From assembly GCA_913060685.1 (NCBI GenBank), contig CAJXVQ010000004.1, forward strand, positions 1 through 38,878: DNA of 38,878 nucleotides. The letters are read 5' to 3'. The DNA comes from an uncultured Verrucomicrobiales bacterium (GTDB lineage: Bacteria; Verrucomicrobiota; Verrucomicrobiia; Verrucomicrobiales; Akkermansiaceae). The notes under the pieces are model-generated. The model was not told the DNA's origin and ran no database searches. It worked only from the letters and a program-made list of their open reading frames with translations. This document shows positions 3,901 to 38,878 of the stretch, piece by piece (the stretch's first letter is position 1; every line of letters starts with the position of its first letter). The position numbers were made by a program, and so were the translations under genes.

Positions 3901-6900
3901 GGACACGAGAAGGCGCGGGCCTGCGTGGAGTGGTATCAGGACAAAGAGCTGCTGAAGCGCGAGTGGTCGGCCCCAGGCCGGACCCAGCAGCGTTTTGCCA
4001 TCCCGATCGAGGAGAAAAACCGCGGCGGAATCACGGTGGTCGTCTGGCAGGTGACCAAGAATCGCTTCCATTTGTTCAACCGCGGGATCGAAGTGCCCTG
4101 GAAGAACAAGGAGCTCACCATCCGCTGGGAGCACCTGGTATCAAAACTCAAGCCTGGGAGCAAAGAGAGCTGGACGGCCGTGATCGAGGGGCCCGATGGT
4201 GAGGCGGCGGCCGCGGAAATGGTGGCCACACTCTACGATGCGTCGCTGGACACCTACACTCAGCATCAGTTTATGAATTTGAGTAATGTGCTGCGGAGGG
4301 AATGGAGAGACCGTAGCTCTGTCTATTGGTGGTATGGAAGCTCGGCATCGCAGTTTAACAGACAGGCATCCTTTCCGCGACCCACCTTGTTTCAGCTGGC
4401 GGTTCCGTTCCGGCAGTTCCGCGACGAAGTTGAATTACTCGGTTGGTCAATGAGCAAAAGCAGGAATCAATGGATGAGCGCTGGTAAGTTCAGATCAATG
4501 ATGGGAGGGCTTTCCCTTTTAACGGGTGGAGGTGATTTCGTGGCACTTTCAGCAAATTCGGAGATGGCGAAACCGGAGATGAGCCCGGGCACCCCGGACT
4601 TGTCGCAGGTCTCGCTTCGGAAAAACCTTCAGGAAACAGCCTTCTTTTTTCCGGAGCTCACGAGCGATGAGGAGGGTAAAGTGAGGATGAGTTTCACGAT
4701 GCCCGAGGCGCTCACAAAGTGGCGCTTTCTTGGACTGGCTCACGATGAGGAAATGCGCACGGGCTTCCTAGAGGGGGAGTTCGTCACCTCGAAGGATTTG
4801 ATGGTGCAGCCAAACCCACCACGCTTCCTACGCGAAGGCGACGAGTTGGAATTCACGGTCAAGCTGACGAATCAGAGTGAGGTCGAACAGGAAGGCACGG
4901 CGCGGCTGACGCTGGCGGATGCCGCGAGCGATGAGGACCGGACGGCGGCTCTGGGAATCGCCCAGCCAACGCAAAGCTTCAAGGTCCCGGCCAAGGAGAG
5001 CCGGACCCTGAGCTGGCGGATGTCGGTGCCCGACGGCGTGGGATTCCTCCGCTACAAGGCGGTGGCCTCCAGTGGTCAATTGAGCGATGGCGAGGAAGGC
5101 TGGCTGCCGGTAATTCCTCGTCGCGTGCTGGTGACCGAATCAATGTCGCTGCCGGTTCGTGATGCCGGCAAGAGCGAGTTCGAGTTTTCGAAGCTCCTCG
5201 AAAGTAACGAATCAGAGACCTTGGAAAATCGTTTCCTTCATCTGCAGGTCGTTTCGCAACCGGCTTGGTATGCCGTGATGGCCCTGCCCTATCTCATGGA
5301 ATATCCTCACCAAGGCTCCGAGCAGATTTTCAACCGCTACTATGCGAATGCCCTCGCCCAAAAGATCGTGTCCTCCGATCCCAAGATCCGGCGGGTCTTC
5401 GATCTCTGGAAAGCGGAGGGCGTGCCCCTCGACAGCCCCCTGGAAAAGGACGCTGATATGAAAGGGATCATGTTGGAGGAAACGCCGTGGTTGCGGGATG
5501 CTAAGAACGATTCAGAGGCGCGTCGCTTGGTCGGTCAGCTCTTCGACGAAAACCATCTCAACCACGAACTCGAGCAAGCCCTCCGCAAGCTGTGGACGAT
5601 GCAAGGCCAAGACGGAAAGTGGCCTTGGTTTCCCGGAGGAAAAGGGAATGACTACATCACCCGATATGTCACCACGGGCTTTGCGAAACTTCGGGAATTG
5701 GGCGTAAAGACCGACATCACCCCGGCCTTGCGCGCGCTCCGACCGCTCGATGCCGACCTGACGCGGACCTACGAAGAGCTGAAGAAGAACGATCAACTCA
5801 AGAGGATGAACCTCAGTCCGCAGGTGGCCCATCACCTCTATACACGAACCTTCTTCCTCAAAGACAAGGCCTTAACCGCGAGGGACGAGGTTGCTTTCGA
5901 CTACTTCGTGGCCCAAGCGCGCGAGCACTGGGTAAAACTTGGCAGCCGGATGTCGCGGGCACACGTGGCACTCGCCCTGCACCGGCTCGGCGATGAGAAG
6001 GTGCCAAAACTCGTGACACTCTCTCTCAAGGAAAATGCCAAAGTCACCAAGGATCAAGGAATGTTTTGGAAGGACAGCCCGGGTTGGTCATGGTCGCAGG
6101 CTCCGATCGAAACCCAGGCGATGATGATTGAGGCTTTCCGCGAAATCGATGGCGACGCGCAGGCCGTTGAGGACTGTCAGGTATGGCTCATCAAGCAGAA
6201 GCAAGTCTCCGATTGGAAGACGACCAAGGCAACCTCGGATGCGGTTCACGCACTGCTACTCGGGGGGCGGAATCTCCTGGGCCCGGATGACTTGTTAGAG
6301 GTCTCACTCGGCGGGACCAAGATTATGCCCCGGAAAATCGAGGCCGGCACGGGCTTCTTTGAGACGCGTTTCGTCGCAGATCAGGTGAAGCCGAAGCAAG
6401 GCAAGGTAGAGGTGGACAAGAGCAGTCCGGGGGTGGCATGGGCGAGCCTGCATTGGCAGTATCTCGAGGATCTCGGCAAGGTCACCTCCCACGAGGGTCG
6501 TGAGCTGGAGCTGGAAAAACAGCTCTTCGTCCGCCGTAACACTGATCAGGGCAAAGTGCTGGAGCCGGTCAAGGGCCCGCTTGAACCCGGCGATGAACTG
6601 GTGACCCGTCTCGTGCTTCGAAACAACCGGGCGATGGAATTTGTTCACCTTAAGGACCAACGTGGCAGCGGCACCGAGCCGGTCAATCGCCTGAGCGGCC
6701 AGCGCTCGCAGGATGGCTTCGGCTATTACGAGGTCACGCGCGACACCGCGAGCCACTTCTTCATCGACCGCCTCCCCGCCGGCACGCACGTCTTCGAAAC
6801 GAGCGTCCGGGTTCAACATCGCGGCCTCTACCAAACCGGGATCGCCGAAATCCGTTGTCTGTATGCCCCGGAGTTCGCAGCCCACAGCGCAAGCTTGCCA

Positions 6901-6915
6901 GTGGAGGTGAAGTAG
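907..6915 (+). CDS. Large secreted alpha-2-macroglobulin-like protein without thioester Cys
   Basis: A 2002-residue protein. The N-terminus has a long basic stretch, then a hydrophobic segment (about residues 31-53) ending GLMAA before mature ERE, so it is probably Sec-exported. An MG2-type block contains YRPGQTV (619-625). The A2M-domain signature starts about R1238 (RKNLQETAFFFPEL), preceded by a low-complexity stretch of about 100 residues that could be the bait region. In thioester-forming bacterial members the motif is YPYGCxEQ; here residues 1466-1473 read YPHQGSEQ, with Gly at the Cys position, so a covalent thioester cannot form. The toroid-like domain follows, with a WPWFPGG motif (1572-1578). 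The family traps proteases in the periplasm or at the surface. Thioester-less members such as E. coli YfaS exist. The serpin gene follows after 41 bp, presumably cotranscribed. The start is chosen from the conserved leader shared with the gene at 8569. Confidence 0.93.
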   Translation: MNRSISPPKVLASRRPHSPFAFQRRHPINKFLTAVTFFRICVLLLTCGIPGLMAAEREAEWAKVAEARKLDQPKTAMSLLENIEKAAFADQDWAEGTRALTERIALEGKSEDQATLIRKLDTAIATAPEEARPILQAISARWMTSYFKANRWRFAQRGAVKSPVEGDFETYDLTRILKEIDKRLQATLTNEASLKKIPVTEFAELFSKGSLGDAYRPTLYDLVAQAALDFYGEELVTVARPIEAFEIGANSPVFGAVEEFLAWQPESKEKDSPKLRALQIYQSLLGFHRGEAEGEAFLCINLERLRWARGSAVGEVDTLFEKALRRFIAAHAESPVSSWARAELGALLISRKEAEKAHSVFAAGAAAFPEHSFGKLCTNKRKELEQPVLNLSTESQWTPAGEEIRVSHRNLKRVWFRAYPLEFDPGSLKFEPTPPLDKTLLEKMLKGKPLKTWDRKLPGDGKYTVHSTLLDSPTDLPDGFYRLVASANESFSMKGNVIAVREIHVTPLGLTAQQRPGGVIEGFVVNAVTGDPLAGVAVDVWTKTNEQTVNRSTRSDEQGRFEFKFKKVAPGLCVVVASRGKQRSVVSTYLYNHEQEGAVKLPFDEDYQSVVFFTDRAIYRPGQTVRFKGIWCRSNPAEQEYGVFAERKCTVVLSDPSRRNIAKLEVKTNRRGSFSGSFIVPEGGVLGQWSLKISGQFFGGSPFWVEEYKRPKFFSEIDAPTEQAALGQVIQVKARAEGYTGAPVDGAKIKWKVVRQTRLPVWARWCWWCPPSSAGSGEIAHGEGGTDEEGSVIIAFKALPDRSVSEDLEPVFDFLVSIDITDAAGETRSAERRISVAYTSLKASITSEEWLESGQEIEFKLRTESHDGEGRPAKGVLKVHRLKEPKECPRGASSQRLKNGDRPFVDPADRWAPGELVAELAVESDEEGKAIVRQTLEQGAYRLVFETKDANGRAVKALRGIEVVDPESDKLPSMKPFFIGVPSWSVEPGQEFELLWGSGHEKARACVEWYQDKELLKREWSAPGRTQQRFAIPIEEKNRGGITVVVWQVTKNRFHLFNRGIEVPWKNKELTIRWEHLVSKLKPGSKESWTAVIEGPDGEAAAAEMVATLYDASLDTYTQHQFMNLSNVLRREWRDRSSVYWWYGSSASQFNRQASFPRPTLFQLAVPFRQFRDEVELLGWSMSKSRNQWMSAGKFRSMMGGLSLLTGGGDFVALSANSEMAKPEMSPGTPDLSQVSLRKNLQETAFFFPELTSDEEGKVRMSFTMPEALTKWRFLGLAHDEEMRTGFLEGEFVTSKDLMVQPNPPRFLREGDELEFTVKLTNQSEVEQEGTARLTLADAASDEDRTAALGIAQPTQSFKVPAKESRTLSWRMSVPDGVGFLRYKAVASSGQLSDGEEGWLPVIPRRVLVTESMSLPVRDAGKSEFEFSKLLESNESETLENRFLHLQVVSQPAWYAVMALPYLMEYPHQGSEQIFNRYYANALAQKIVSSDPKIRRVFDLWKAEGVPLDSPLEKDADMKGIMLEETPWLRDAKNDSEARRLVGQLFDENHLNHELEQALRKLWTMQGQDGKWPWFPGGKGNDYITRYVTTGFAKLRELGVKTDITPALRALRPLDADLTRTYEELKKNDQLKRMNLSPQVAHHLYTRTFFLKDKALTARDEVAFDYFVAQAREHWVKLGSRMSRAHVALALHRLGDEKVPKLVTLSLKENAKVTKDQGMFWKDSPGWSWSQAPIETQAMMIEAFREIDGDAQAVEDCQVWLIKQKQVSDWKTTKATSDAVHALLLGGRNLLGPDDLLEVSLGGTKIMPRKIEAGTGFFETRFVADQVKPKQGKVEVDKSSPGVAWASLHWQYLEDLGKVTSHEGRELELEKQLFVRRNTDQGKVLEPVKGPLEPGDELVTRLVLRNNRAMEFVHLKDQRGSGTEPVNRLSGQRSQDGFGYYEVTRDTASHFFIDRLPAGTHVFETSVRVQHRGLYQTGIAEIRCLYAPEFAAHSASLPVEVK

Positions 6916-6956
6916 TGCGATGTCATCACAATTCCCAATCGAAAAACCAATTAACC

Positions 6957-8465
6957 ATGAAAACGACTGTCCGAATCTTCGCCCTGACCCTCGCCGCATG
7001 TGCCGGGAGCTCCGCCGCCGAGCCGAATCCCGCAATTAAGGCCAACACCAACTTCGCCTGCGATCTCTACCAACAACTCGCTGGAGAGAACGAGGGAAAA
7101 AACATTTTCTTTTCTCCTTACTCCGTTTCCAGCGCGCTGGCGATGACTGCCGAGGGCGCGCGCGGCGAAACCGCATTGCAGATGGGCAAGGTGCTGCGCT
7201 ATCCGGAGTCGGCCGCGACCAAAGATGCTTCGACACCCTGGAAGATGGCTCCGATCCATTCCGGCATGGCCGCCTTGAACGAGCGCTTCAACAGCAAGAA
7301 GGATCCCGTGGTTGTCGCAGAAACCAAAGCCAAAATCGCGGACCTGGAAAAGCAACTGGAAGAGCTTAAGGCCAATCATGACCCCCGCAGGTTCGGCTAC
7401 CGTGTCGATCCAAAGCAGGTCGAACTTGCCAAGGAGATCAACGCCGCGCGGGCACAGCTCGATCAGTATGAGCTGAACCTCGCCAACGCCTTGTGGGTTG
7501 AGAAATCCTATCCGTTTAAGGACGACTACCTTAAAAAGATTGAGAAATTCTATAAAACCGGGGGCGCGTTCCCAGTCGACTTCAAAGGGGAATTCGAAGA
7601 AGTCCGGCTCGAGATCAACTCCTGGGTTGAAGGGAAGACCGAGAAGCGAATCAAGGATCTAATCCCTCAAGGCGCAGTCGATGATTTGACCAAGCTGGTC
7701 CTGGTGAACGCCATCTACTTCAAGGGCGATTGGGCGAAGCCCTTCAAAGTAGAAAACACCAAAGATCGTGATTTCACCCGGGCCGACGGAACGACCGTAG
7801 CGAAGCCGACGATGAGTGCCAACGCCCTCAAAGAGGCCCGCTACGCAGCCTTCAATGGCGACGGCTCATCTTTCAAAACACCTTTAAATATCAACAGCTC
7901 CGGCCCAAGGCCTGAGCTCTACTCAGGAAAGGACGGCTTCGCCATGCTCGAACTGCCATACATGGGCAATGAGTTGTCGATGCTGATCATCGCACCCAAT
8001 AACCCCGGCCAGCTCGCCGCGGTCGAAGGAAAGCTGACGCCGGAGAATCTTGCCGCGTGGATCGCCAAACTGAATCAGCGAAAAGTTCACGTCCTTCTGC
8101 CGAAGTTCAAAGTCGAGACTGACTACTCTTTCGGCAACACGCTGAAGAAGATGGGGATGACCCAAGCCTTCGCTGATCCGCGCAAACCAAATGGTGCCGT
8201 CTTCGACGGGATGAGTCACGCCACAGATCCCAACAACAAACTCTACATTACCGAGGTAATACACAAGGCCTTCGTCGAAGTGAGCGAGAAGGGAACCGAA
8301 GCCGCCGCCGCAACAGCCGTCATCATGGCGATGCCAACGTCAGCTCCAATCTCCTACCCTTTCACCCCCACCTTCAAAGCCGACCGCCCCTTCCTCTACC
8401 TGATCCGCGACCGCGTGACCGGGAGCATCCTTTTCATGGGCCGGATGATGGAGCCGACAACATAA
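6957..8465 (+). CDS. Serpin (serine protease inhibitor) with coiled-coil insertion
   Basis: A 502-residue protein, longer than the usual 370-420. Residues 12-15 read LAAC, a good lipobox, so it may be a lipoprotein; cleavage after SSA is the alternative. The serpin core is plain: NIFFSPYSVSSALAM (49-63), ANALWVE (176-182), LVNAIYFKGDW (249-259), LLPKFKVETDYS (380-391) and a C-terminal DRPFLYLIRD (476-485). The reactive-centre hinge EKGTEAAAATAV (444-455) has the small residues typical of inhibitory serpins. Counting from the hinge puts P1 at Pro460 or, allowing one residue of slip, Met459. Residues about 115-170 form a charged, heptad-like segment absent from classical serpins. It is 41 bp behind the macroglobulin gene, so the two protease inhibitors are probably made together. 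Start: ATG 6957, the first giving a signal sequence. Confidence 0.95.
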   Translation: MKTTVRIFALTLAACAGSSAAEPNPAIKANTNFACDLYQQLAGENEGKNIFFSPYSVSSALAMTAEGARGETALQMGKVLRYPESAATKDASTPWKMAPIHSGMAALNERFNSKKDPVVVAETKAKIADLEKQLEELKANHDPRRFGYRVDPKQVELAKEINAARAQLDQYELNLANALWVEKSYPFKDDYLKKIEKFYKTGGAFPVDFKGEFEEVRLEINSWVEGKTEKRIKDLIPQGAVDDLTKLVLVNAIYFKGDWAKPFKVENTKDRDFTRADGTTVAKPTMSANALKEARYAAFNGDGSSFKTPLNINSSGPRPELYSGKDGFAMLELPYMGNELSMLIIAPNNPGQLAAVEGKLTPENLAAWIAKLNQRKVHVLLPKFKVETDYSFGNTLKKMGMTQAFADPRKPNGAVFDGMSHATDPNNKLYITEVIHKAFVEVSEKGTEAAAATAVIMAMPTSAPISYPFTPTFKADRPFLYLIRDRVTGSILFMGRMMEPTT

Positions 8466-11228: not shown

Positions 11229-12198
11229 GAGTCGTCAGGAGATGTTGAAAGGTTTTCCGGAACTTGGCGAGTTTTGGTGAAATCACGGCCTGACAATAGC
11301 CCTGTTCCGAATTGTCATTGTAGTAATTATTGTGGTCCGCTGGTGCCGGGTAGAAGAGTTCAAAACGCTTCACCTCGGTCACAATATCGGAATCAAAAAC
11401 GTCCGCGAGTTCCTCCAGAACATCCTCGGCAATCCGGCGTTCTTCGTCGGTTCGATAGAGAATTGTGCTACGATACTGCGTTCCGACATCCGCTCCCTGC
11501 GCGTTCAGGGTCGTGGGATCATGCGTCCCCATATGGACCCGCAAAAGCTCTTCGTAGGAAATCACCTCGGGATCGTAATTGATCTGAATCACTTCGGCAT
11601 GACCGGTCTCGCCCGAGCAAACGGCCCGATAAGTGGGATCGACCACCTGACCATCGCTAAATCCACTCTCGATGGAAATCACCCCTTTCAAGTGCTGAAA
11701 CATCGCCTCGGTGCACCAATAGCATCCCCCGCCAAAGGTCGCGACCGCTTCGGTTTCCTCCACCTTCTTCAACGACACCGCATTCATGCAATATCGCAGG
11801 CCACTGGGTTCCGGCCCATCGGGAAAAACGTGACCAAGATGTGCCTCACAGGTATTGCAAAGAGTTTCGATTCGCACCGCGGCAAGGGAACCATCCTGAT
11901 GATAGGAGATTGAGTTCTCCTTCGCCGGCTGGGTGAAGGAAGGCCAACCGGTTCCGCTATCGAACTTCTCTCCCGCATCAAAGAGCAATGTCCCACAACA
12001 CACGCAGCCATACTTGCCGGGCTCGAAGAGCTCGCACATCCCCGAACTGAAGGGTCGCTCGGTGCCGTGTTGCCGGGTCACATAAAATTCTTCCTCGGTG
12101 AGCTGCTCGCGCCACTCGTCTTCGGTTTTACGAACCTCACGATCGGGCTCGGGATTTCCTTCGGCGGCAAATTTAATGATATCGTTCCAGTGAAGCAT
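11221..12198 (-). CDS. msrBA: Fused methionine sulfoxide reductase MsrB-MsrA
   Basis: A 325-residue bifunctional enzyme with no signal peptide. The N-terminal MsrB domain starts MLHWNDIIKF. It has zinc CxxC pairs at C65/C68 and C114/C117 and the catalytic Cys137 in GLRYCMNAVSL. MsrA follows directly, with catalytic Cys159 in GGGCYWCTEAMF and a C-terminal QGYCQAV resolving-Cys region. MsrA reduces S- and MsrB reduces R-methionine sulfoxide, both repairing oxidised proteins. The order B then A is less common than A then B but known. It overlaps the downstream disulfide oxidoreductase by 8 bp, suggesting that the reductase regenerates the thiol donor used here. Start: ATG 12198 fits the family N-terminus; ATG 12225 would add nine residues. 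Confidence 0.95.
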   Translation of the reverse strand: MLHWNDIIKFAAEGNPEPDREVRKTEDEWREQLTEEEFYVTRQHGTERPFSSGMCELFEPGKYGCVCCGTLLFDAGEKFDSGTGWPSFTQPAKENSISYHQDGSLAAVRIETLCNTCEAHLGHVFPDGPEPSGLRYCMNAVSLKKVEETEAVATFGGGCYWCTEAMFQHLKGVISIESGFSDGQVVDPTYRAVCSGETGHAEVIQINYDPEVISYEELLRVHMGTHDPTTLNAQGADVGTQYRSTILYRTDEERRIAEDVLEELADVFDSDIVTEVKRFELFYPAPADHNNYYNDNSEQGYCQAVISPKLAKFRKTFQHLLTTHE

Positions 12199-19151: not shown

Positions 19152-21389
<2,238 letters not shown>

Positions 21390-29588: not shown

Positions 29589-32500
29589 ATGCTTCACCGA
29601 CTCATTGTCCCCCTTTCCTTCCTTGCCGCGTTCTTCCAGCCCATTCTTGCTGCGGAGGAAACCAACAAGCCGATCAGCTACTACCAGGACATCCGCCCCA
29701 TCTTTCAGGCGAACTGTGTCGGTTGTCATCAACCCTCCAAGGACAATGGCGACTACATCATGACCGATTTCAAACGCCTCCTCGCTGGCGGTGAAGATGC
29801 GGTCGCAATTGTTCCGGGAAAGCCTGATGAAAGCTATCTCATCGAGGAAATCACGCCCGATTCCGACGGTAAGGCGGAAATGCCCAAAAAGAAGGACCCT
29901 CTTCACGAAACCGAAATCGTCCTGATTCGCCGTTGGATCACCGAAGGAGCAAACGATGACACTCCGGAAAACGCCCGCCAACGTTACGATCAGGATCATC
30001 CTCCGGTCTATACCAAGCCTCCCGTCATCACTTCGCTCGACTACTCACCGGACGGAACCTTGCTCGCCATTTCAGGCTTCCATGAAGTCCTTCTCCAAAA
30101 GGCCGACGGCTCCGGTCCGGTCGCCCGCCTGGTGGGACTTTCCGAAAGAATCGAGTCAGTTCGTTTTTCGCCCGATGGCACCAAGCTCGCGGTCACCGGT
30201 GGCCTCCCCGGCCGCATGGGTGAGGTGCAAGTCTGGGATGTCGCGAAAAAGGAGCTCATCCTCTCCGCCCCCGTCACCTTCGATACCATCTACGGCGCCG
30301 CCTGGTCCCCCGATGGCACCAAAATTTCGTTCGGCTGCTCCGACAACACCGTCCGCGCCATCGATGCCAAATCCGGTAAGCAGGTTCTCTTCCAGGGAGG
30401 GCATAGCGACTGGGTCTTCGACACCGCCTTCAACCCGAAGGGAGATCACGTCGTCTCGGTGAGCCGCGACATGACCGCAAAGCTGACCGAGTTCGCGACC
30501 CAGCGCCTCATCGACAACATCACCTCGATCACCCCCAATGCCCTCAAAGGAGGAATGGCGGCCGTGGTCACGCACCCGACCCGCGACGAAATCCTGGTCG
30601 GCGGCTCCGACGGAATCCCCAAGCTCTACCGCATCTTTCGCAACACTCCCCGCAAGATCGGTGACGATGCCAACCTCCTCCTGGAATTCCCGCCCATGGA
30701 AGGACGGATCTTTGCCGTCGACATCTCAAAGGACGCCCGCCGCATCGCCGCCGGCAGCAGCTTGAATGGCAAGGGCGCGATCCACATCTACGAGGTGGAT
30801 CCCGATGCCAAGATCACCAAGGAAATTGCCGAAATCATCAAGAAGCCCACTCACGAGCGCAACGACGACATGCGCAAGAAGCTCCAGAAATACTTCGACG
30901 AAAGCGTCAAAACTCTCGCCACCTTCCCGGTCGCGGAGTGCGGAATTTTCGCGGTCTCCTTCAACCCCGACGGTTCACGATTAGCGGCCTCCGGAGCGGA
31001 CGGAAAGGTTCGTATTCTCGATGCCTCGAACGGACAGCTCGTGACTTCGTTTCTTCCCGTCGAAATCACGCCCGATTCCGAAGCCGCTCGAGAACAAAAC
31101 GATGGCCCCGCCAATCTCGATAAACGTTTACCTCTCGATCCCGAGCAAATCCCGGAGGGTCGGACCATCGTCAGCCTGGACGTCCGGCAGGAAGGCATCA
31201 AAGGCCCGATCAAGATCGACACCCCGTATCGCTATGCCCAGGTCATCGTCTCCGCCGAACTCGATTCCGGAGACATCATCGACGTCACCCGCATTGCTCA
31301 AAACAGCGTCGAAGGTGACCACGTCACCATCACAAACACCGGCGTGGTTCGCGGAGTCTCCGATGGCAACTCCCGCATCAAATTCGCAATCAACGGAAAG
31401 AGCGCCGCAATCGCGGTGGAGGTTTCGGGCATGCAGAAAGAATTCATTCCGGCATGGACCAAGGACGTCAACCCGGTCGTAGCCCGCATGGGTTGCAATA
31501 CCGGAACATGTCACGGTTCCAAGGACGGCAAAAACGGCTTCAAGCTTTCCCTCCGTGGCTACGATCCTCTTTACGACGTCCGCGCGTTCACCGATGACAT
31601 TGGCTCACGTCGGGTCAACCTCGCCTCCCCCGATGACAGCCTGATGCTCCTCAAAGCCACCTCCGCCGTGGCCCATGAAGGAGGTCAACTCACCAAGCCT
31701 GGCGACGACTATTACGAGATCGTGCGCGCCTGGATTGCCAACGGAGCGAGGCTGGAGAAAAAGCAGACCAAGGTTGCCAAAATCGAGGTCTACCCGATCA
31801 ACCCTGTCGTTCAGAAAATCGGCTCAATGCAACAAATGCGGGTCATTGCCACCTATCCAAGTGGAGAAACACGCGATGTCACCTCCGAAGCTGTCGTCAC
31901 CAGCGGAAACGGCGAAGTTGCCAAAACAGTGAAGGGGTATCCCGCGCTCATCAAAGTGGTCCGCCGTGGCGAAGCCCCCATCCTGGTTCGCTACGAAGGA
32001 GCCTACGCCGCTACCACCGTCACCGCGATGGGCGATCGCAGCGGCTTCGCGTGGACCGATCCACCGAAGTTCAATGAGATCGACAATCTCGTTGCCCAAA
32101 AATGGCGACGCATAAAGACTCTTCCTTCCGAAGTCTGCACCGACCCCGACTTCGTCCGCCGCATATATCTCGATGTCACCGGACTCCCTCCGACGGTCGA
32201 GCAAGTGAAGTCATTTCTCGCCGACACCCGGCACTCCCAGGTGAAGCGCAACGCCTTGATCGACTCCCTCATTGGCAATCCCGAGTTCATCGAATTTTGG
32301 ACCAACAAATGGTCCGACATGCTGCAAGTGAATCGTAAATTTCTGGCCCCCGAGGGAGCCAAACTTTTCCGAAGCTGGATTCGCAAGGAAGTCGCCGACA
32401 ATACGCCCTACGATGAATTCGCCCGCAAGGTCATCACCGCAAGCGGCTCCAACAAGGACAACCCTCCCGCTTCCTACTACAAGATCCTTCGCACTCCGGA

Positions 32501-34694
32501 GGACACCATGGAGAACACCACCCACCTCTTCTTGGCGACCCGTTTTAATTGCAACAAATGCCACGACCACCCCTTCGAACGGTGGACGCAGGACAACTAC
32601 TACGAAATGTCCGCCTTCTTCGCCCAGGTCGGCCTCAAAGCAGATCCCGCGAGTGGCAAAAGTAAAATCGGAGGCACCGCCGTGGAAGGAGCCAAGCCAC
32701 TCTACGAAATCATTTATCAAAAGAATGATGGCGAACAGAAGCACGAGCGGACAGGCGACATCACGGCTCCGAGCTACCCTTACGAAGCCGACCACGTCGC
32801 GAAAAAAGACGCCAGCCGCCGCGACAAACTCGCCGAGTGGATGACCTCCCCCGACAACCGCTACTTCGCCTCGAGCTACGCCAACCGCGTTTGGGGATAC
32901 ATGATGGGAACCGGGATCATCGAACCACTCGACGACATCCGAGCCGGCAATCCTCCCTCCAATCCCGAGCTTCTCGATTGGCTCGCCAAATACTTCATCG
33001 AGAGTGACTTCGACATTCGCGAGCTCATGCGCGTCATTTGCAAATCACGCACCTATCAACTCTCGATCAAGACCAACAAGTGGAACGAGGACGACACCAT
33101 CAATTTCTCCCATGCCAAGGCCCGCCGCCTTCCGGCCGAGGTTCTTTACGACTCCATCCACGCCGTCACCGGTGCCAGCAGCAAATTCCCCGGCGTTCCC
33201 AAAGGGACCCGCGCCTCCTCCCTCCCCGACGTCGGAGTTAGGCTACCCGATAGCTTCCTTGCAAACTTCGGCCGCCCCGTCCGTGAAAGCTCCTGCGAAT
33301 GCGAACGCAGCAGCGAGATGCAACTCGGGCCGATCATGGCCCTCCTGAGTGGCCCGACCGTGGGCGACGCCATCTCTGATCCCAACAACGCCATCTCCAA
33401 GCTAGCCAAGGAATCCAACGATGATCGCTCGCTCGTTGAGGGATTATTCTACCGCATTCTCAACCGCCCCGCGACCGAACCCGAAATCAAAGCCAGCCTT
33501 GAGGCATTCCGCGCCGGAATCGACCAGGACCAGGCCTCTCTCGAGAAAGCCCTTGCTGCACACCTCAAAGCGCGCGATCCCGCCACCGCCGCTGCTGAGA
33601 AGAAACGCGAAGAAGACATCATCGCGAGCAAAGCTGAGATCGCCGCCCATGAAAAAGCGATCAAACCCCAGGCCGATGCCGCTGCGCAAAAACGAATCGA
33701 AACCATCGCACAACTGGAAAGCGAAAAGAAAGCCTACGACGCATCCCTTCCCTCCAAGATTGCAAAATGGGAACAGGAACTCGGCAAGGGAGGCACCCCT
33801 TGGACCCCACTGAAACCTTCCGAACTTAAGTCGACAAACGGAGCCCTCTTAACTGTCGAAGCTGATCAAGCAGTCATCGCGACCGGTAACAATGGCCAGA
33901 CCGACTATCTTCTTTCCGCACCCACGGACTTGAGTGGCATCACTGCGATTCGACTCGAGGTGCTCGCCGACGACCGCCTTCCCGGTAAAGGCCCGGGTCG
34001 CCAAGCGGGCAACTTTGTCCTCGGTGAATTCGAACTCGAAATCGCTCCGGCACAGGACCCCAAAAAGTTCCAACGCGTCAAGTTCAGCACCGCCAAAGCA
34101 AGCTTCAGCCAGCAGAACTACGAAGTCGCGAAGGCCATCGATGGCAAGCCCGGTGGCCCAAACGCCGGGTGGGCAATTTCTCCTCAGGTCGGCAAGAATC
34201 AAACCGCCCTCTTTGGAATCGGCCAGCCTATCGGACACACTGGAGGTAGCATCCTACGTTTCACCCTCAAGCAACCCTTCGACAACGTTCACACGCTTGG
34301 AAAGTTCCGGATCTCGGTCACGACCAAGCCAGGCCCTCTTCCCTTCGGCATTCCGGAAAACATCAAGCAGTCACTCGCTCTCGGCAAAGAGAAGCGAAAC
34401 GACAAACAAACAGGGGGAATTACAAAATATTTCCGAGATAGCGACGCCAGCCTGAAAGCTCTCGACCAAAGCCTGGCCAACGCGAAAAAGCCCCTCCCCA
34501 TCGACCCCAAACTGACGAATCTTCGCAAAGGACTTGTCGAGCTCGAGAGTTCTCCCCGGGCTGACCCACGACACGACCTGCTCCGCAAAGACCTCGAACT
34601 CAGTACGAAACAACTCGTAGACCGCCGACTCACCGGCGCCCAGGATCTCGCCTGGGCTTTGATCAACACGCCCGCCTTCCTCTTCAATCACTAA
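29589..34694 (+). CDS. Multihaem DUF1549/DUF1553 protein with WD40-like repeats
   Basis: 1701 residues with signal peptide ending ILAAEET. N-terminal planctomycete cytochrome domain (PSCyt1-like): CVGCH at 43-47. WD40-like repeats, about 130-510, are marked by [20 protein letters not shown] and [10 protein letters not shown]. An Ig-like segment precedes a second cysteine site C636-x4-C641-H642 ([11 protein letters not shown]), a spaced motif common in this family. DUF1549 (about 830-1040) contains C988-NK-C991-H992. DUF1553 (about 1130-1390) has the [12 protein letters not shown] block. A coiled-coil region (about 1330-1400) and a beta-sandwich region separate the two last parts, an unusual insertion within the C-terminal DUF1553 end ([10 protein letters not shown]). 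Function of this family is unknown; electron transfer and polysaccharide degradation are suggested by context. 23 bp precede the DUF1501 gene. Confidence 0.95.
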
Positions 34695-34717: not shown

Positions 34718-36187
<1,470 letters not shown>

Positions 36188-36217: not shown

Positions 36218-38878
36218 ATGAGGTTGACCCACCAATTCTCCATCCTGATCTTTGCACTTTCGGTTGCGGCTTATGCCGAGCCGAAGGATGAATTGATCCC
36301 GCTCCGCTTGAAGGAGATGCAGCGACCTGACCGACTCACGGGCGCGATAGAGACCAAAGCGATGCTCACCGGCATGTCGCTTGAAGAAAATCTCCCCGAA
36401 CCAAACGCGGATATCGCCTGGCCCGGAGAGCAATTCTCGGAAGCGGCTCTGGCACAACTTAATCGTCTGACCAAGACCGTTGACAAGGACGACATACGCG
36501 ATCTCCTCGCCGAGGATTTCGTTTGCACCCCCTTCGAAAAAGCAGGCAAACAAAAGAGCCTTTCCAAAAGCCTCACGGTTCATTCAGGAACACCGGGAGC
36601 GGCAAAACCAATGAGCTCTCAAGAACTCATGACAAAGCTGGGAGCTCTTGGAAAACTGAAATTCAAAGTCACCGGCGTTGAAAAATTGACCACCCGCTTG
36701 CATGTCGAGGCAGATCGTGACGGGGCTGAATATTCCGCGATCTGGCTTTGCTCATGGAATGACGACCTCTCCCCCAAGCTCCAAAAACTTGAAGTGGAAA
36801 ACTTCGAAACGGTCCACTCAAATGATCCATGGTTTGTCGACGCCACGAGCACTACGATCGGAACAAACCCGCGGTTTGAAGCCCAGGTGATGCGGGGCAT
36901 TGGCTACTGGTCCGAGCGCATCACCCGCATCGGCGATCTCGCCATGACGGGTCATCACGGGATTGCCGTTGGTGACGTCAATGGCGATGGACTGGAAGAT
37001 CTCTACGTCTGCGACGGAGGCAGCCTGCCCAATCAACTCTACCTTCAGCAAGCCGACGGCTCGGCGAAGGAGGTTGCCTCGGAATGGGGCGTCGCCTGGC
37101 TCGAAGATTCGCGAAGCAGCTTGTTGGTCGATCTCGATAATGACGGTGATCAGGATCTCGTGGTCGCGACCATTGCCATGATTGCTTTTGCTGAGAATAA
37201 CGGAGAGGGCAGGTTCGAGTTGAAGGGCGGATTCCCCGGAGCCCCCTACCCTTTTTCATTGAGTGCGGCTGATTTCGACTCGGATGGAGATCTTGATATT
37301 TACACCTGCATTTACAGCGCGGGAGATGATTCGGTCTCGGGGAAACGAGGCTTCGAAGCAAGCTCGCCCATTCCCTTCAACGATGCCGAAAATGGCGGGC
37401 GCAACGTTCTTCTGGCAAACCTTGGCAACTTCAAATTTGGCGACGTTACGAAGCAGGTTGGCTTGGACGAGAACAACACGCGTTGGAGTTTTGCCGCATC
37501 TTGGGAGGACTTTGATCGCGATGGCGACCCCGATCTTTACGTCGCCAATGACTTCGGGCGAAACTGTCTCTATCGAAATGACCAAGGACGTTTCGTCGAT
37601 ATCGCACCCGCAAGCGGAGTCGAGGATATGGCCGCCGGGATGTCGGTTTCCTGGGGAGACTTTAATCGGGATGGCGACGCCGATCTTTATGTCGGAAATA
37701 TGTTCTCGTCCGCCGGCCAGCGGGTCTCGTTTCAAAGGAAATTTGATGAGGGCAAAACACGAATGGCCCGCGGAAACAGCCTCTTTGCGGCGAAGGATGG
37801 AGCATTTGAAGACGTCAGCCTAAGAAGCGGGATCACCAATGGCGGCTGGGCCTGGAGTTCGGTCTTGGCTGATCTCAACAATGACGGGTGGCAGGATCTC
37901 GTGGTCGCCAACGGATATTTGACGAACACACGCGATGATGATTTGTGAAGTTTCTTCTGGCGACAGGTCGTGTCGCCCTCCGAAAAAATCGCCGATTACA
38001 CGCGCGGCTGGTCCGGCTTGATGAAGCTCGTCCGAAACGGGCACTCGTGGAGCGGGAGCGAGCGGAACCGTTTTTTTCTCAATGGCGGACAGGGAAAATT
38101 TCATGAAATGTCACACCTCGCCGGTCTCGATCAGATCGAAGACGGTCGAGGACTGGCCCTGGTCGATTGGGACCATGATGGTCGGCTCGATCTTTGGTAT
38201 CGGAACCGCAGTGCCCCTCGCCTTCGTCTCATGCTCAATCGCCACGAGAGTCCGGCATCCATCGCGATCAGGTTGGAAGGAGCCACTTCCAACCGTGATG
38301 GCATTGGAGCGGTCGTGGAACTCCTCCCCGCGATCAAAGGCAAGCGCCTGGTTCGCTCGGTGAAGGCAGGTGATCTTTTCCTCTCGCAATCAAGTAAATG
38401 GCTGCACTTTGGCCTCGGAGACAAATCAGGTTTCACCCAGGCTTCCGTGATTTGGCCCGGTGGTAAAAAGGAAATTTTCAAGGGGATCGATACGAGCATG
38501 GGTCGCTTTTCCCTCAAACAAGGGACTGGAAAGGCCATTGCCGTGGCGGCCCGCCAACCGATTCAACTTGAGGCGAATCCTCTCGCCAAGAGCTCGAGCA
38601 ATGAGGGAAACGCGAGGATCATCCTACCCGCCAGAGTGCCCTTTCCCTCTCTCACTTTTCGAGACCAATCCGCCCAACTCAAAACTCTGATCCGAAACGG
38701 AAAGCCCCGCCTTGTCATCCTCTGGTCCGGGACATGCGGACACTGTAAATCAACCTTGAAGGAGGTCTCCAGGAATGCCGATCAAATCCGTGCGAGTGAA
38801 CTCGAAGTGCTCGCACTGAGTGTCGATGGTCTCGCGGGCCCTGCTGCCGATGTTTCCCCGGCTTACAACCTCATCGAC
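36218..38878 (+). CDS. Candidate selenoprotein: CRTAC1-type FG-GAP / ASPIC-UnbV / thioredoxin-like protein (Sec577), cut by window end
   Basis: Signal peptide ends AAYAEPK. Residues about 70-200 form an N-terminal domain of unknown type. FG-GAP calcium-loop repeats follow: DVNGDGLEDLYV, DLDNDGDQDLVV, DFDSDGDLDIYT, DFDRDGDPDLYV, DFNRDGDADLYV and DLNNDGWQDLVV. The frame then reaches UGA at 37946-37948 (codon 577, after NTRDDDL). The same frame continues open for 310 codons to the window edge, with SFFWRQVV, DWDHDGRLDLWY, the ASPIC/UnbV block (SNRDGIGAVVE, WLHFGLG, VIWPGGKK) and a thioredoxin-like domain with CGHC (Cys840/Cys843). I recall Cys at the UGA position in relatives (DLCSFFWRQV). With the hairpin at 37951-37985, selenocysteine is the best reading; a nonsense mutation is the alternative. 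The family role is unknown. It lies 30 bp after DUF1501, in the same operon. The C-terminus lies outside. Confidence 0.8.
37949..37985 (+). promoter_or_regulatory. Candidate bacterial SECIS element directly after UGA 37946-37948
   Basis: Upper stem of seven perfect pairs: GGCGACA (37959-37965) with TGTCGCC (37971-37977), apical loop GGTCG (37966-37970). A 4x4 internal loop and a lower stem TTTC (37951-37954) with GAAA (37982-37985) extend it. The loop begins 17 nt after the UGA. The loop-proximal AGGUC is the same five bases as in the E. coli fdhF SECIS, where the loop G and U contact SelB. The bacterial SECIS model I recall (loop about 16-37 nt past the UGA, G in the first two loop positions) is met. 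Confidence 0.75.

Follow-up and report, generated by a model that had tools for sequence, protein, structure and literature searches.

A bacterial SECIS hairpin in an apparently new family of selenoproteins that usually join a CRTAC1-like propeller to a TlpA-like domain

RESULTS

Genes and features at the locus

The DNA examined here (the window) is a contig of 38,878 nucleotides from an uncultured bacterium of the Verrucomicrobiales (Akkermansiaceae). The last gene in the window (36218–38878, + strand, 887 codons) opens with an ATG at 36218, and its translation runs across an in-frame UGA and remains open up to the window end. The window is the entire contig and the gene is therefore cut, 3′-incomplete, at the contig end. 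The UGA (37946–37948, +) is codon 577 of this frame and is read here as selenocysteine (Sec). It is followed directly by an AGU serine codon (37949–37951, +), which falls under a codon bias seen across the family (described below), and then by a hairpin predicted by RNAfold, in which a 5′ arm (GGCGACA, 37959–37965, +) and a 3′ arm (UGUCGCC, 37971–37977, +) flank an apical loop (GGUCG, 37966–37970, +); the inner six nucleotides of each arm are those that have been kept as paired.

The encoded protein begins with a likely export signal (residues 1–20, ending in SVAAYA; 36218–36277, +), which was inferred by eye and without a predictor. Pfam searches with the window protein returned FG-GAP_3, FG-GAP, UnbV_ASPIC and a weak AhpC-TSA match. 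The UnbV_ASPIC domain (residues 695–758; 38300–38491, +) scored 46.8 bits against a cut-off of 23.4, and the start of a TlpA-like AhpC/TSA domain (residues 817–872; 38666–38833, +), truncated by the contig end, scored 21.9 bits, below its cut-off of 26. This last stretch contains a CGHC redox motif (C840 and C843; 38735–38746, +) located 263 residues past Sec577.

A DUF1501 gene lies directly upstream (34718–36187, +), as it also does in the same-genus orthologues L312 and L313, and is itself preceded by a gene with Planctomycete-type cytochrome c (PSCyt1), WD40, DUF1549 and DUF1553 domains (29589–34694, +), the DUF1549/1553 part of which is kept in the same two orthologues. The contig also carries a serpin gene (6855–8465) and a gene of the peroxidase family (739 amino acids, 19152–21371). 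An Rfam scan of the window gave no match at gathering scores, and ARAGORN found no tRNA in the window or around selA and selB.

A hairpin immediately downstream of the UGA

An initial annotation of this DNA had described a perfect 7-bp stem with the loop GGUCG, its stem beginning 10 nt and its loop 17 nt past the UGA. Refolding reproduced that hairpin, with correct coordinates, at 37959–37977. The annotation had also likened the tip to that of the E. coli fdhF element; since an fdhF fragment folds with a GGUC loop closed by an A-U pair, that resemblance is real. (That fragment occurs in 5368 of 5426 E. coli genomes, with an fdhF annotation in both of the matches listed.)

RNAfold placed the hairpin within the minimum free energy (MFE) structure of a 61-nt segment (−18.1 kcal/mol, z −2.0, equalled by 8 of 200 dinucleotide shuffles); a 47-nt segment gave −13.4 kcal/mol (z −2.1, 6 of 200 shuffles equal) and a 36-nt segment −12.5 kcal/mol. 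Synonymous shuffles of the window sequence reached equal energy in 3.7% of trials, an equal 7-bp stem at the same place in 10.7% and a stem of at least 5 bp in 35%. The last two figures favor the idea that the hairpin merely follows from the encoded protein, with the codons for WRQVVSP folding by chance and the structure having no role, and they bear out an earlier warning that the encoded protein constrains this region. Equal hairpins among synonymous shuffles had been named in advance as a result that would refute the element: the outcome does not refute it, but shows only a modest rarity, measured on one sequence. Because a hairpin is fairly likely here from the encoded residues alone, a single-sequence statistic is weak, and with the shuffles matching both energy and stem at these rates the single hairpin is not decisive.

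A family of paralogues with a conserved in-frame UGA

Of the order's 189 genomes, 44 gave matches to a 296-residue query around the UGA; most of the matches listed contain a single in-frame TGA. With a profile (A1), 19 matches were found in the window's own genome, of which 13 contain one TGA and six contain no stop (five of these do not extend to the UGA column). Six richer genomes gave 80 matches, 63 of them with one TGA (15, 12, 9, 9, 10 and 8 per genome), so that the seven genomes counted hold about 8–15 UGA paralogues each. One match of the genome with 15, L137 (G180 C44), is doubtful and probably not a true member: the profile sets a TGA there, but the SFFWRQV motif and the hairpin are missing, and the TGA is probably a true stop or a misalignment. 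In one second-clade case (L131; G045 C1, 213680–219218) two UGA paralogues form a tandem pair, separated by about 3 kb, and both have a hairpin of their own.

Across 124 distinct family members the aligned codon is TGA in 104, Cys in 16 and Asp in four. A wider scan of named genomes left 80 loci, with 66 matches that span the UGA column and 24 TGA codons. In complete cases the frame remains open for about 200 to 640 residues past the UGA. The family thus meets the selenoprotein criterion that the in-frame UGA be conserved in position and flanked on either side by homologous sequence, as well as that of Cys at the aligned position, found in 19 rows (the 16 above and three from the wider scan, score >100). 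These belong to a sister group of 23 rows, in which 19 have Cys and four have Asp in alignment with the UGA. By record title, UGA forms occur in Verrucomicrobiales/Akkermansiaceae/Roseibacillus, Planctomycetota, Acidobacteria, Gemmatimonadetes and Dehalococcoidia; as the records are metagenome-assembled genomes (MAGs), single taxon cases could be misbinned.

Taken at face value, a mechanical list of open reading frames shows one frame stopping at 37948 and another starting at 37970, which is what would be listed if the UGA were a true stop, or the product of a frameshift, a sequencing error or gene decay, with a remnant or a separate gene downstream. A single UGA at the same codon in more than 100 homologues from many genomes, together with a frame open on both sides of it and conserved domains downstream, leaves practically no room for that reading.

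At two contig ends (L016, near 11290–11327, and the 3′ end of L018) the sequence translates to MCIRDR-like and LLYTSPSPRDRG strings, which we take to be typical sequencing-adapter artefacts and which fit a fragmented assembly.

Selection on the hairpin as RNA

For counts of stems and energies, L166 (which contains N), L182 (a duplicate) and wider-scan matches below 100 bits were dropped. From synonymous shuffles, a stem of 5 bp or more is expected at this place in 36.2 of the 126 distinct UGA rows and in 3.7 of the 25 sense-codon rows; it was present in 109 and three of them, respectively. Mean hairpin energies were −10.8 kcal/mol in UGA rows (n = 126) and −5.5 kcal/mol in sense rows (n = 25; Mann-Whitney p 3.7e-12). 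Cys homologues, in which loss of the hairpin had been suggested as a sign of selection and an equal frequency of it as a refutation, do not refute the element: a stem of 5 bp or more occurs in three of 19 Cys rows, and none has a GGUC loop. In UGA rows whose stem reaches 4 bp or more, the loop is GGUCG in 63, GGUC in 17 and GGUCA in six.

The paired positions also covary. Sets for this analysis were thinned at 92% identity (from 102 to 71 sequences for the main clade and from 22 to 21 for a second clade), with two rows that belong to neither group set aside. Throughout the family six base pairs of the stem are conserved and the outermost (seventh) pair is not. Over the 71 main-clade sequences, 94.6% of the cells in this 6-bp core are paired, and the core has a covariation score of 0.312, compared with 0.131 ± 0.014 for shuffles (none of 500 as high) and at most 0.132 for slid registers; four of the six core pairs display changes on both sides. 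The second clade (n = 21) forms the stem with a 4-nt loop, paired in 88.1% of cells with a score of 0.263 against 0.196 ± 0.018. Some of the changes that keep a pair alter the protein, for example from Gln-Val to Arg-Ala or Arg-Thr (columns 20 and 26, A3).

Codon usage around the element is similarly skewed. GTC encodes the Val of the loop in 107 of 125 rows (its share in the same genes is 34%), the Ser after the UGA is encoded by AGY in 108 of 109 members (35% in the same genes; background 2542/7336), and an A follows the UGA directly in 118 of 125 rows (L137 left out).

No stem of at least 5 bp was found at the tested place in 17 of the 126 UGA rows; some of these carry a hairpin in another register (L055), one is the doubtful member L137, and others are simply weaker. 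L055, L073, L194 and L231 make up a UGA subclade of their own whose hairpin differs; in L055 it consists of a 7-bp stem (GGGCUGU/ACAGCCC) and a 6-nt CGUGUC loop; the loop motif is thus not fixed in the wider family.

Acidobacterial homologues provide a further control, stronger than those proposed beforehand. A homologue is present in 110 of 300 genomes of Edaphobacter's family, and 50 acidobacterial loci, part of the matches listed, were examined and yielded 48 distinct rows. In 45 of these a sense codon occupies the UGA position within a near-identical SFFWRQVV context, encoding Ala (15), Gly (11), Ser (9), Asn (7) or Gln (3) and never Cys. Stems of at least 5 bp occur in 12 of the 45, against 10.1 expected, and all three acidobacterial UGA rows have a 6-bp stem with a GGUCG loop. 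L177/L270 and L181/L306, which derive from the same two genomes, were taken as the same genes, which brings the distinct sense rows overall to 68, 15 of them with a stem. In a tree of 98 of the 196 rows (built by a quick method, with moderate support) the acidobacterial sense rows form one clade inside the UGA rows, and thus represent a single loss; the Cys rows make up a group of their own.

Chance folding of the WRQVVSP codons would not account for an absence of excess stems in 45 sense homologues of the same context alongside the strong excess in UGA rows, nor for covariation that extends to changes in the protein, and we regard it as very unlikely. Unlike the single sequence, the family is decisive: on the comparative evidence of these alignments, the 6-bp stem and its GGUC-type loop are selected as RNA.

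Agreement with published bacterial SECIS rules

The rules for bacterial SECIS elements set out in PMC13188914 call for an apical loop of 3–9 nt on an upper stem of 4–16 bp, a G within the first two loop positions, a distance of 16–37 nt from UGA to apical loop, and an MFE of −7.5 kcal/mol or lower. The window element meets all four, with a 5-nt loop on 7 bp, the loop sequence GGUCG, a spacing of 17 nt, and energies of −12.5 (36 nt) and −13.4 (47 nt) kcal/mol. The G rule is also met by 108 of the 109 family rows whose stem has 5 bp or more, in which the spacing is 17 nt in 92, 18 in 13, 16 in two and 15 in two.

Like E. coli fdhF and the bSECIS consensus (PMC13188914), the element is a stem-loop in the coding region just 3′ of the UGA, with an A-U-closed GGUC apical loop and an energy below −7.5 kcal/mol. 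The loop starts 17 nt past the UGA in the window and 18 nt past it in the fdhF fragment. Unlike fdhF, which has bulges and a paired lower part, its upper stem is straight and uninterrupted. The family element further differs from fdhF and bSECIS in being very uniform and repeated across many paralogues, and in the 4-nt loop register used by its second clade.

Selenocysteine machinery

The window's own genome encodes SelB (307 bits, cut-off 242) and SelA (478 bits, cut-off 268). No tRNA-Sec above the Rfam cut-off was found in its assembly (840 contigs, 93.6% complete). Seven weak tRNA-Sec matches were rejected, being called by ARAGORN as tRNA-Ser, -Leu, -Asp and -Met, and a BLAST search of that genome with the tRNA-Sec of G021 gave no match. 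Nor does the assembly contain a selD above the cut-off, the matches on C667 and C420 falling far below it. Two genomes of the same genus (G021 and G003) have both a tRNA-Sec with a UCA anticodon and selD, and we therefore read the gaps in the window's genome as missing assembly, although this has not been shown. More broadly, selD is above the cut-off in 11 of 12 UGA-family genomes and has its own in-frame UGA in eight of these. The selD genes of G131, G134 and G162 (relatives' selD are L249–L259) contain no stop and lie in a frame of 757–797 amino acids, perhaps a fusion.

We considered whether the UGA is instead read through by a tRNA other than tRNA-Sec (a near-cognate Trp or Cys tRNA) or belongs to a reassigned code. 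The absence of tRNA-Sec and selD from the window's own assembly and the Cys (19 of 23) and Asp (4) residues of the sister group fit such a reading. Set against it are the use of TGA as an ordinary stop in three of the 11 window genes checked, the presence of selA and selB in the genome, the four SECIS rules met and the occurrence of tRNA-Sec together with a UGA-containing selD in same-genus genomes; we judge it extremely improbable.

Of 19 genomes with named UGA loci, 17 have a selA above the cut-off, as do six of six genomes with sense loci, so that its presence does not separate the two. Because sense-codon genomes keep selA, disappearance of the Sec pathway does not explain the loss of Sec.

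With these alternatives weighed, we are highly confident, on comparative evidence, that the hairpin represents the SECIS of a selenoprotein gene and that UGA 577 encodes Sec; binding of SelB and insertion of Sec are inferred. By analogy with the known bacterial pathway, SelB carrying Sec-tRNA would bind the GGUC loop and would then deliver selenocysteine to the ribosome at UGA 577.

Protein architecture and a possible redox relay

Since the window gene is incomplete, the fold was assessed on a complete relative, L169, that is 63% identical to the window protein (P0001; A5 alignment). The AlphaFold model of L169 (pLDDT 82.6, pTM 0.85) contains a propeller that superposes on murine CRTAC1 (Z 35.9, 455 residues, 2.2 Å) and a C-terminal domain that matches ResA (1st9, Z 17.1) and TlpA (1jfu, Z 16.9), the latter also by sequence (E 6.8e-4). 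Sec621 of the model sits at the start of a helix (residues 620–629). The criteria for a CRTAC1/UnbV_ASPIC protein are met by FG-GAP repeats and UnbV_ASPIC above their Pfam cut-offs and by the CRTAC1 fold of L169. Those for a TlpA-like domain are met by the CGHC motif, present in the window despite the cut domain and aligned with the invariant C894 and C897 of L169, and by the thioredoxin fold of L169; in another complete relative (L052) AhpC-TSA is above its cut-off (39.9 bits).

The family shares its propeller and ASPIC domain with CRTAC1/UnbV_ASPIC FG-GAP proteins, but unlike them has a propeller that carries Sec at a helix start, and ASPIC is followed by a thioredoxin-like domain. That domain has the fold and CxxC of TlpA/ResA thiol-disulfide oxidoreductases, from which it differs in being fused to a Sec-bearing propeller. 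The sister group has Cys in DYCTKFWCHD-type motifs, and its complete members lack the CxxC domain. In contrast to the UxxC and UGC TlpA-like selenoproteins of Table 1 in PMC13188914, the Sec of this family lies outside the thioredoxin domain.

An alignment of 20 UGA proteins, each of them a long form, has no invariant Cys/Sec columns other than the Sec and the two CxxC cysteines. Among the 101 UGA proteins that extend at least 330 residues beyond the Sec, 95 carry the CxxC, about 250–285 residues past the Sec. The motif also occurs in all three acidobacterial UGA proteins, against none of 43 long acidobacterial sense proteins; in the two of the latter that were aligned (L177 and L181) the thioredoxin-like domain is retained and its cysteines are replaced. 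Six UGA proteins (L040, L041, L043, L045, L046 and L084) have Sec and a C-terminal extension with no CxxC at the usual place and a Cys about 356 residues past the Sec.

The product would be an exported CRTAC1-like propeller with Sec at a helix start, usually joined to a TlpA/ResA-like thioredoxin domain. We infer that the Sec may be the reactive centre, attacking a periplasmic or extracellular substrate (a peroxide, a disulfide or another oxidised compound), and that the CxxC of the thioredoxin domain may re-reduce it. A Sec-CxxC relay is likely but unproven, as it rests on one joint loss: the disappearance of Sec and CxxC together is a single event in the tree, six of the 101 long UGA proteins keep Sec without CxxC, and an independent-pairs test of Sec against CxxC had one pair only and no power. 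The complete proposed function, attack on an oxidised substrate by Sec followed by its reduction by the CxxC, we hold to be only slightly better supported than not.

Propeller folds of the CRTAC1 kind can bind metals. It is conceivable that Sec is inserted without the thioredoxin domain as its partner, acting as a metal ligand or as a substrate-side nucleophile recycled by other proteins. This finds support in the lack of CxxC from 18 complete short UGA forms as well as from the six long ones, in the general capacity of such folds for metal binding, and in neighbours that include cytochrome-type and surface proteins. It sits poorly with the near-universal CxxC of long UGA proteins and its absence from long acidobacterial sense proteins, and with the finding that Sec and CxxC are the sole invariant Cys/Sec columns; it remains a substantial possibility, if one that we doubt.

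Gene neighbourhoods were also considered as a functional clue, and rejected. Among 35 clustered regions, DUF1549/1553 occurs in only eight and DUF1501 in only seven, and since this arrangement is limited to the window's orthologues and a few paralogues it is not general. Other recurring neighbours encode LamG, sulfatase and CotH-type proteins.

DISCUSSION

On comparative evidence, the element described here is a genuine and canonical bacterial SECIS, and the selenoprotein family that contains it appears to be new. Table 1 of PMC13188914 (2026), with 119 prokaryotic selenoprotein families and subfamilies, has no FG-GAP, VCBS, ASPIC or CRTAC1 entry, and these terms are likewise absent from its text. 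Within the accessible parts of three further sources, the propeller-thioredoxin family is not among the nine new families of deep-Sep (PMC12013277), FG-GAP, CRTAC1 and ASPIC are not mentioned in PMC9312934, and neither FG-GAP nor ASPIC is mentioned in PMC4807772 (its supplementary selenoprotein table excluded). Among the papers listed by literature searches for selenoprotein together with FG-GAP, VCBS, ASPIC, CRTAC1, UnbV or propeller-TlpA, none was relevant; most subscription papers and a groundwater MAG study were outside the scope of these searches, and the family may therefore be in print elsewhere. Against the selenoprotein models of NCBIfam 20.0, P0001, L057 and L058 matched no family and L052 matched only below cut-off, nearly all via thioredoxin or TPR parts.

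Large selenoproteomes are known, with 57 genes in an Olavius symbiont and 63 predicted in a Methylomirabilota MAG (PMC13188914). The genomes described here resemble those in having many selenoprotein genes; unlike those totals, the roughly 8–15 paralogues in each of the seven genomes counted belong to one family only.

Taking all of these observations together, a joint reading can be offered tentatively, at somewhat less than even confidence. According to it, an unrecorded family, duplicated repeatedly to about 8–15 copies per genome and with members in five phyla by record title, would constitute an exported Sec-propeller redox system that is recharged by a TlpA-like domain on the same chain; the hairpin would shape the protein (as in the exchange of Gln-Val for Arg-Ala or Arg-Thr); and one acidobacterial lineage would have turned non-redox, losing Sec, CxxC and SECIS together.

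The decoding element is a textbook one, and the protein that it serves is absent from the 119-family inventory (PMC13188914, Table 1). An ordinary search for open reading frames splits the genes of this family in two. With seven genomes of the order holding about 8–15 copies each, selenium use is probably undercounted in these bacteria. The same protein context, with and without a UGA, offers a clean natural control for how a SECIS inside a gene constrains the evolution of the protein. To our knowledge, the bacterial role of CRTAC1/ASPIC proteins is unclear, and the family provides these proteins with a testable active site.
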